This document shows positions 2,623-27,175 of a stretch of DNA of 38,230 nucleotides, piece after piece. The stretch spans positions 1 through 38,230 of the forward strand of contig JAIDWS010000018.1 in the NCBI GenBank assembly GCA_029059055.1. Reading direction: 5' to 3'. This DNA is from Alphaproteobacteria bacterium (GTDB taxonomy: Bacteria; Pseudomonadota; Alphaproteobacteria; Rs-D84). Each line of letters opens with the position of its first letter. Position 1 is the first letter of the stretch. Made by a program: the position numbers and the translations under genes. Below the pieces are notes generated by a model. That model searched no databases and was not told the DNA's origin. It saw nothing but the letters and a program-made list of their open reading frames with translations.

Positions 2623-2640
2623 TGGCGGAGACGAATTCCC
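2623..2640 (-). repeat. Third, shortened copy of the tRNA-Ser 3' end
   Basis: TGGCGGAGACGA repeats the last bases of tRNA-Ser, including the CCA and acceptor strand, then continues as ATTCCC after loss of about four bases relative to the copy at 2731. On the minus strand it reads GAGGGAATTCGTCTCCGCCA. Confidence 0.7.
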
Positions 2641-2730
2641 TCCTCGACAAACAATAACAAAAATCACAAAAAACTCTGATTAACAACATCCGTTTTTTGG
2701 ATTGCCCCACAATGGGGGCTTTTTTTATCC
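2641..2730 (-). repeat. Second unit between tRNA-Ser 3'-end copies
   Basis: This 90-bp AT-rich segment lies between the copies at 2623 and 2731 and contains a hairpin (GCCCCAC/GTGGGGGC type at about 2703-2719, with a T-run at 2720-2726 on the plus strand). It has no ORF and no visible similarity to the first unit. It is bounded by direct repeats in the same way as the first unit, so it may be a remnant of another insertion. Confidence 0.4.
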
Positions 2731-26578: not shown

Positions 26579-26652
26579 GCGGGCGTGGTATAATGGTAGC
26601 ACGTCAGCTTCCCAAGCTGAAGACGAGGGTTCGATTCCCTTCGCCCGCACCA
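26579..26652 (+). tRNA. tRNA-Gly (anticodon CCC)
   Basis: Acceptor GCGGGCG/CGCCCGC, anticodon stem TCAGC/GCTGA around loop TTCCCAA (anticodon CCC), T-arm GAGGG-TTCGATT-CCC, encoded CCA at 26650-26652. It reads GGG codons. A -10 like box TATAAA lies at about 26555. Its 3' end is repeated at 26798 and, less exactly, at 27146. Confidence 0.96.
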
Positions 26653-26797
26653 AGAATTCAACCGCCCGTGTGGCGGTTTAATTTTTGGCCTGTGGCGATG
26701 GAATTGAACCCGACCAGAGGGTTCGAAAACAAGTAGGCAAGACAAACGAAGTGCTGTCGAGCCGTCACGGTTTCCCCGCAGGCATATAATGCCGAGG
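26653..26797 (+). mobile_element. tRNA-tail element, tRNA-Gly copy (145 bp, no ORF)
   Basis: It starts right after the tRNA CCA with a GC hairpin and T-run (ACCGCC/GGCGGT at about 26661-26685), then contains the 31-nt core at 26718-26748 and the 23-nt core at 26761-26783, both identical to the element after tRNA-Ser (2796-2826 and 2761-2783). It ends GCCGAGGG, joined to a copy of the tRNA-Gly 3' end. It has no credible ORF. Confidence 0.7.
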
Positions 26798-26817
26798 GAT
26801 TCCCTTCGCCCGCACCA
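26798..26817 (+). repeat. Copy of the tRNA-Gly 3' end (20-bp direct repeat)
   Basis: GATTCCCTTCGCCCGCACCA is identical to 26633-26652 of tRNA-Gly. Upstream it reads CGAGGG, so the T-stem 5' strand is also restored but the T-loop bases TTCG are missing, as at the tRNA-Ser locus. Confidence 0.88.
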
Positions 26818-26904
26818 GCCTATGTTCGCAAGCGAACTTCGGCTGGCAAGCCGAGTAAGCGTTGAGAACTGGCTGCCCGCCGGAACAAAGAGCAGGAGGG
26901 CAAC

Positions 26905-27147
26905 ATGTATTATGTCTATATCTTGCAAAGTATATCTCACCCAACCCAATATTATACAGGCATGACATCCGATTTAAAAACGCGGATACAACAACACAAT
27001 CACGGATATGTATCACATACGTCTAAGTTTACACCGTGGAAACTGCTGGCATATTTTGCACTGGACAGTCGCGACAAGGCAGCAAAATTTGAACAGTATT
27101 TGAAATCCGGTTCTGGGCGCGAATTTGCAAAAAAGCATTTTCGCTGA
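26905..27147 (+). CDS. Single-domain GIY-YIG endonuclease
   Basis: The 80-aa protein is a complete minimal GIY-YIG nuclease: YYVYIL and YYTGMT supply the two tyrosine strands, LKTRIQQH the catalytic Arg, and KFEQYLKSG the metal-binding Glu. It belongs to the UvrC-like/UPF0213 single-domain group whose natural role is poorly known. AGGAGG at 26894-26899, the strongest Shine-Dalgarno in the window, precedes the ATG by 5 nt and sets the gene apart from its neighbours. The TGA stop overlaps the first base pair of a copy of the tRNA-Gly 3' end, so the coding region runs precisely to the repeat. I infer it is part of a tRNA-targeting element. Confidence 0.88.
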   Translation: MYYVYILQSISHPTQYYTGMTSDLKTRIQQHNHGYVSHTSKFTPWKLLAYFALDSRDKAAKFEQYLKSGSGREFAKKHFR

Positions 27148-27165
27148 TTCCCTTCGCCTGCACAG
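27146..27165 (+). repeat. Degenerate third copy of the tRNA-Gly 3' end
   Basis: GATTCCCTTCGCCTGCACAG differs from the tRNA end at three positions (C to T at base 14, and CA to AG at the end). It overlaps the stop codon of the GIY-YIG gene. Confidence 0.7.
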
Positions 27166-27175
27166 GCCTGTAAAA

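Follow-up and report, generated by a model that had tools for sequence, protein, structure and literature searches.

Behind two tRNA genes of the window, a stretch of 38,230 nt from an alphaproteobacterium with a genome of about 1 Mb, lie two copies of one short, structured, non-coding cassette. We consider it probable that these cassettes are of the type of the tRNA-linked repeats (TLRs), that their cores move to junctions in tRNA loops, and that they spread by recombination.

Two units of the window share a core and end in local tRNA sequence

On the plus strand, an intact tRNA-Gly(CCC) gene (26579-26652, recognized by ARAGORN and Rfam) is followed by a unit at 26653-26817. This unit opens directly 3' of the CCA with a terminator-like GC hairpin (26653-26689, seen in the sequence and by folding) and continues with an imperfect inverted copy of the local tRNA-Gly 3' end (26690-26712, GTGGCGATGG-AATTGAACCC versus GGGCGAAGGGAATCGAACCC, identified by arm statistics). 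A second copy of the 5' half of the T-arm (AGGGTTCGA, 26718-26726) is joined to a structured core of about 75 nt, the family-1 core (26727-26798; covariation and a match to the covariance model R1 at 26720-26802, 96 bits), and the unit closes with a copy of the tRNA-Gly 3' end, from A58 to A76 (ATTCCCTTCGCCCGCACCA, 26799-26817). On the minus strand, the intact tRNA-Ser(CGA) gene (2887-2976) is followed by a unit at 2886-2731. Of this unit, 2750-2886 contains a hairpin, an inverted arm that is degenerate, GGGTTCGA and a family-1 core (model match 2746-2824, 87 bits), and 2731-2749 holds the tRNA-Ser 3' end copy, AATCCCTTCGTCTCCGCCA.

A sequence-only reading of the window had reported the likeness of the two segments, and this description holds: the 31-nt block AGGGTTCGAAAACAAGTAGGCAAGACAAACG (26718-26748 and 2826-2796) and the 23-nt block GCCGTCACGGTTTCCCCGCAGGC (26761-26783 and 2783-2761) are exact in both, a GC hairpin opens each segment right 3' of the CCA, and each closes with GCCGAGGG followed by a 19-20-nt copy of the 3' end of its own tRNA. 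The exact CCCTTCGCCCGCACCA recurs at 26802-26817 and the exact CCCTTCGTCTCCGCCA at 2731-2746, each as a second occurrence at the end of its unit. By contrast, the statement that the end copies lack the T-loop bases TTCG proved to be mistaken: GAGGG is part of the core, with the tail copy beginning only at A58/N59. GAGGG was rejected as a T-stem copy because it is constant core sequence whatever the tRNA, and pairs with a core-internal CCC; it is kept behind tRNA-Gln (GAGGGAATCAGCTGCCCC) although the T-stem of tRNA-Gln is GTTGG.

Three elements had been overlooked: the inverted tail copy ahead of the core, a unit of a second type behind the tRNA-Ser unit, and a GIY-YIG gene behind the tRNA-Gly unit. 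The second-type unit (2623-2730, minus strand) is truncated and consists of a family 2 end, TTTTTGTTATTGTTTGTCGAGGAGGG, and a degenerate tail copy, AATTCGTCTCCGCCA. The GIY-YIG ORF (26905-27147, plus strand, 80 aa; Pfam PF01541, 5e-15) lies in the next cassette of the plus strand (26818-27166), composed of a leader, the ORF and a degenerate Gly tail copy that closes the gene (27146-27163, plus strand), and is flanked by two Gly tail copies.

The core is a covarying fold found throughout the genus, mostly behind tRNA genes

The resemblance between the Gly and Ser units is not due to chance, because R1 matches 12 copies in the window's own genome and detects the core in 71 of the 78 genomes of the genus, with up to 23 copies per genome (one genome was sampled per species, and some counts are based on drafts). 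Weaker R1 matches were obtained in other genera of the family and, outside that family, in a single genome of the order, and an 85-bp query matched 22 of 59 relatives, all congeneric. The exact core pattern had no match in viral contigs. For 105 of 126 distinct copies, the 700 bp examined on the upstream side include a same-strand tRNA; in these tRNA-linked copies the core usually lies 55-95 bp past the CCA, and 20 isoacceptors are represented, for Pro, Arg, Ser, Met, Gln, Tyr, Gly, Lys, Val and Leu. Tandem arrays of units occur behind tRNA genes, with the orientation of the tRNA kept.

The search of the genome and its relatives that the sequence-only reading had suggested thus returned mostly tRNA-adjoining cores with local end copies, as well as empty loci among relatives. 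Fixed positions across relatives were not found, and copies away from tRNA genes and devoid of end copies were limited to a few exceptions, the family-1 cores L059 (genome G070) and L088 (G015), which have neither a nearby tRNA nor a tail copy. The L059 core is placed after the apparent 3' end of infA.

The core folds into a long helix and a two-part hairpin, with 18 base pairs that display strong covariation. Among 95 distinct core rows, 91.4% of the cells were paired, versus at most 47% when the partners were slid, and double changes were observed at 17 of the 18 pairs (285 double-change cells versus 82 in shuffles). The same result was obtained with 23 distinct A4 rows (73 versus 23 double changes), which were mostly outside model building, yet were aligned with that model. 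G-U and A-C counts in core pairs, compared for the strand of action, were 66 and 48, respectively.

Core pairing under selection is also what supports a different reading, namely that the units are immobile, vertically inherited ncRNA genes of tRNA operons, with a regulatory or decoy role, homogenised by gene conversion. Tails that are exact although the cores diverged argue in the same direction, as does the in vitro binding of Hfq and CsrA by the rRNA-linked E. coli TLRs RrA/B/F (PMC8144298). We nevertheless regard this reading as unlikely, in view of the comparisons between species described below; function and mobility are compatible with each other.

Unit ends follow the host tRNA

The unit frame comprises a hairpin, a partial inverted local tail, the local T-arm 5' half, a family-specific core and a local copy from A58 to the CCA. 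When tails were compared, the last 14 nt of the local tRNA ranked first among 41 tails in 60 of 74 scorable units, and the tail was exact over 14 nt in 53 of these. N59 matched the local tRNA in 61 of 74 units, including 10 G:G and 3 T:T cases. For the inverted arm, the local tRNA ranked first in only 12 of 76 units; the arm is clear at Arg(TCT), Val and Lys, and degenerate, often unreadable, in many family-1 units. As the arm is only partly local in family 1, we rejected the idea that it arises by exact mechanical copying of the tail.

In L114 (G143, Arg(TCT)), L081, L087 and L084, cores are joined head to tail with no intervening tail copy, through GAGGGA-ACACAAGTAG, family 1 then family 2. 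These fusions point to re-insertion at the same A58/N59-like junction.

We propose that the core itself is what would move, entering a junction within a tRNA loop, in the normal case the one that separates A58 from N59 in the T-loop. The target tRNA would survive owing to duplication of the stretch between the loop and the gene end. Spread between strains would proceed by recombination at the same tRNA gene, whereas unequal exchange between tail repeats would multiply the units and, likewise, allow their scarless loss. As to the trigger, the likeliest candidate in our view, though at less than even odds for this step alone, is that a strand of the tRNA loop breaks and that a core from another tRNA locus is copied in during repair, via the universal GGTTCGA/ATCC microhomologies. 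Such a break may come from a nuclease, e.g. the GIY-YIG proteins of sister cassettes, or from a recombinase.

Comparison of tRNA loci indicates gain, loss and exchange of units

The tRNA-Gly(CCC) locus was compared across 30 further genomes. At 11-12 of these 30 loci, only local sequence was found past the CCA, while the occupied loci hold at least five unrelated cassettes, each closing in a Gly tail. Family 1 is present in the window's own genome, G010, G096 and G075. A cassette of about 113 bp, with TTTGAATCGGGTATCC and a GTTGCTAATAACGCAAC hairpin, is found in G072, G026, G016 and G018, and three times in tandem in G097; it constitutes a separate family, devoid of the post-CCA hairpin (L123, L124, L127, L132, L121). 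A 69-bp cassette is present twice in G004, a longer cassette in G006, and another family with the hairpin frame in G017, G011, G083, G068 and G087. A clean empty site is provided by G012 (empty) compared with G018 (occupied), with the flank ATAAAAATAAAAAG common to both, right after the CCA. A survey of G067, whose tRNA loci were assembled from separate stretches, revealed families 1, 2 (...GTATACGAAGATGAACAATTAG...TGTGTATCAAGG) and 3 (...AAAGGGGCCC...GGGAATT...) downstream of many of the 44 tRNAs in this genome.

In G075, a core splits tRNA-Gly(CCC) within the T-loop (L033, JAIDLK010000050.1, 5106-4964, minus strand). An intact tRNA-Gly with its unit lies about 0.9 kb downstream of the split gene, in a partly duplicated region. 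No Rfam match to a group I intron was obtained; the interrupted tRNA is a single one, with an intact copy alongside. Occupied and empty sites at one tRNA, and one copy directly within a T-loop, are in agreement with the earlier proposal of a small element that targets the T-loops of different tRNAs. The parts of this proposal concerning the many tRNAs, the intact tRNA and the local 3' end stand; a tyrosine integrase as the agent is not supported, as detailed in the next section.

A further arrangement was observed in G097 (L057, G097:C1, minus strand), upstream of an intact tRNA-Ser(TGA): two tandem tRNA-Ser 5' halves end ...GCGGTCTTG at the anticodon loop, and behind each of them come a family-1-like core and AAAACCG. 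Judged from its sequence, this locus is a mirror-image, anticodon-loop form of the element. The anticodon loop is the other classical sublocation of integration in tRNA genes.

Near-identical cores of different, distantly related species adjoin the same tRNA. At tRNA-Gly, the core is identical and nearly the whole unit alike in the window's own genome (G000) and G075; the alignment ends at the CCA and the flanks are unrelated. A coding stretch of the window shows 67-71% identity to its counterparts in other species. Other cores shared at the same tRNA were found at Arg(TCT) in G200 and G188, at Gln(TTG) in G026, G017 and G034, at Ser(GGA) in G096 and G021, and at Ser(TGA) in G077 and G097. Nearest neighbours were located at the same tRNA in 17 cases, versus 4.5 in 200 label shuffles (maximum 13), and in the same genome in 12 cases, versus 2.8 (maximum 11, again 200 label shuffles). 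Within G010, the cores at Arg(TCT) and Arg(ACG) are 97% identical, with different terminators and local tails, and within G015 the Pro and Arg cores are 96% identical, with local terminators. This sharing of cores across tRNAs could be gene conversion.

Taken together, these comparisons count against immobile, vertically inherited ncRNA genes: orthologous tRNA-Gly sites are empty or hold unrelated cassettes, identity across species is limited to the unit while the flanks are unrelated, and one tRNA gene is disrupted by a core.

Integrases and GIY-YIG nucleases as candidate agents

The sequence-only reading had pointed to tyrosine integrases, which use sites from T-loop to 3' end of tRNA genes. 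One possibility is that the units are remnants or miniatures of tyrosine-recombinase islands inserted at the T-loop, the tail copies being attR scars and the cores fused island ends. Islands of this kind at tRNA genes share with the units the target sublocation, the restored tRNA, the leftover tRNA fragment and the direct repeat from T-loop to 3' end, and att sites typically have a direct repeat that reaches from T-loop to CCA (for partial tRNA genes left by integration, see PMC9897764). Also in line with this possibility are the patchy occurrence of P4-type integrases (PF00589+PF13356) in the genus and the one locus that has the mirror form at the anticodon loop. However, while close relatives of the P4-type integrase of G067 are present in about a dozen of the 78 genomes, none was detected in the window's own genome (E<=1e-10) or in G010, despite their 12 and 11 core copies, and this patchiness and absence led us to reject the G067 integrase as the mover. 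An integrase attP would bring the donor tail; the same core stands at 20 isoacceptors with local, not donor, tails, and integrase agency is therefore not supported. Furthermore, a random junction would not form a covarying fold, as the core does, and the units, which are gene-less, measure about 70-190 bp and are repeated throughout a family; an integrase gene would not fit inside one. We thus judge an origin from islands improbable.

A motif scan of G067 detected XerC-like and XerD-like proteins, and no convincing reverse transcriptase and no Cas1. The matches to the reverse transcriptase regular expression were discarded as DNA polymerase III, MraY, and membrane or lipoproteins.

GIY-YIG genes were found in 38 of the 78 genomes, and 24 of the 31 GIY-YIG loci examined in the genus are directly downstream of a same-strand tRNA. 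Their ATG is mostly about 90-270 bp past the CCA, at no fewer than 10 isoacceptors (L245-L274, L116 and the window), and their structured leaders begin at the CCA (TCCGTCTTCGCTTCGCTCCGTCGCGATT... or CACTTCGCGTCTGCGACGCTTCGTGTGG...). The window locus (at 27146), L116 and L264 close in local tail copies, and L257 and L258 abut family-1 fragments. These single-domain nucleases (PF01541) resemble the units in their post-CCA position, several being followed by tail copies, but they are coding. From their position, the GIY-YIG proteins are hotspot neighbours and candidate agents that may act on the units.

The frequent location directly behind a tRNA and the local tails or adjoining family-1 fragments of several loci would also suit a homing-type system, in which the GIY-YIG genes behind tRNAs act autonomously and the non-coding units depend on them. 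We give little credence to this system, since no GIY-YIG match was found in G067 (18-19 copies) or G010, two unit-rich genomes, the family-1 frame is absent from the GIY-YIG leaders, and a common hotspot may be all that small GIY-YIG proteins share with the units.

A probable variant of tRNA-linked repeats

TLRs have a literature that goes back to 1978 (Egan and Landy 1978; Rudd 1999; Bosl and Kersten 1991; via PMC8144298). E. coli has 22 of them, at ten loci, with 18-19 bp of end identity, and only the three rRNA-linked ones, RrA/B/F, depart from their lack of an assigned function or origin (PMC8144298). Like E. coli TLRs, including rtT of the tyrT operon (Rfam RF00391), the units described here follow a tRNA in the same orientation and carry a copy of the end of their own tRNA (18-19 bp in TLRs). 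E. coli TLRs are tandem units of about 160-180 bp, with an inverted local arm and then GATGAGAA and GGTTCGA, as here, where the frame comprises a partial inverted tail, GATGAGAA, GGTTCGA, core and tail; this motif is exact at the Pro(CGG) locus of the window's own genome and degenerate in the window copies. The three units of the rtT repeats at tyrV/tyrT of E. coli K-12 have the same frame (GGGGAAGGATGAGAAGCTTCGACCAAGGTTCGAC...AATCCTTCCCCCACCACCA). Unlike E. coli TLRs, the present units have other cores, occur as several families side by side, span 20 isoacceptors, show evidence of turnover and transfer, and reside in an alphaproteobacterial host. The Rfam RtT model (RF00391) matched none of them, E values up to 0.1 included, while in control searches it matched most tRNA-linked gammaproteobacterial copies.

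Since frame, position relative to the tRNA and end copy are those of TLRs, and the cores fall outside RtT, we file the units as a TLR variant, one for which the sequence comparisons provide evidence of movement. New relative to known TLRs are the group of hosts, the families of cores, the wide range of partner tRNAs and the evidence that units are gained, lost, moved to other partners and passed between species; mobile TLRs may have been reported before, as our coverage of the literature is incomplete.

REP sequences, which are moved by TnpA-REP transposases, have a GTAG adjoining a conserved hairpin. The resemblance to the units is limited to these two features; REPs are scattered intergenically and have no tRNA end copies.

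The pattern GGATGAGAA...GGTTCGA was found in 32 of 397 Pseudomonadota genomes; the reversed control pattern gave few matches. Matches near tRNAs (Tyr, Ser, Pro, Lys, Arg, Trp) follow them closely, most with local tails; those without a nearby tRNA are probably due to chance. The frame is thus present at gammaproteobacterial Tyr, Ser, Pro, Lys and Arg loci and at one alphaproteobacterial Trp locus. It is conceivable, though doubtful, that the TLR-type units of bacteria from Alpha- to Gammaproteobacteria belong to a single mechanistic class of mobile elements without genes, which enter tRNA loops (the T-loop, once the anticodon loop), keep the gene alive by duplicating the adjoining part of the tRNA and gain a local end at each site, with the GIY-YIG cassettes as coding partners.

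In conclusion, a genus with changing tRNA partners, empty sites, nested families and copies shared across species makes the origin and movement of TLRs directly testable. tRNA 3' ends host very small cassettes, nuclease genes included, that are invisible to current annotation.
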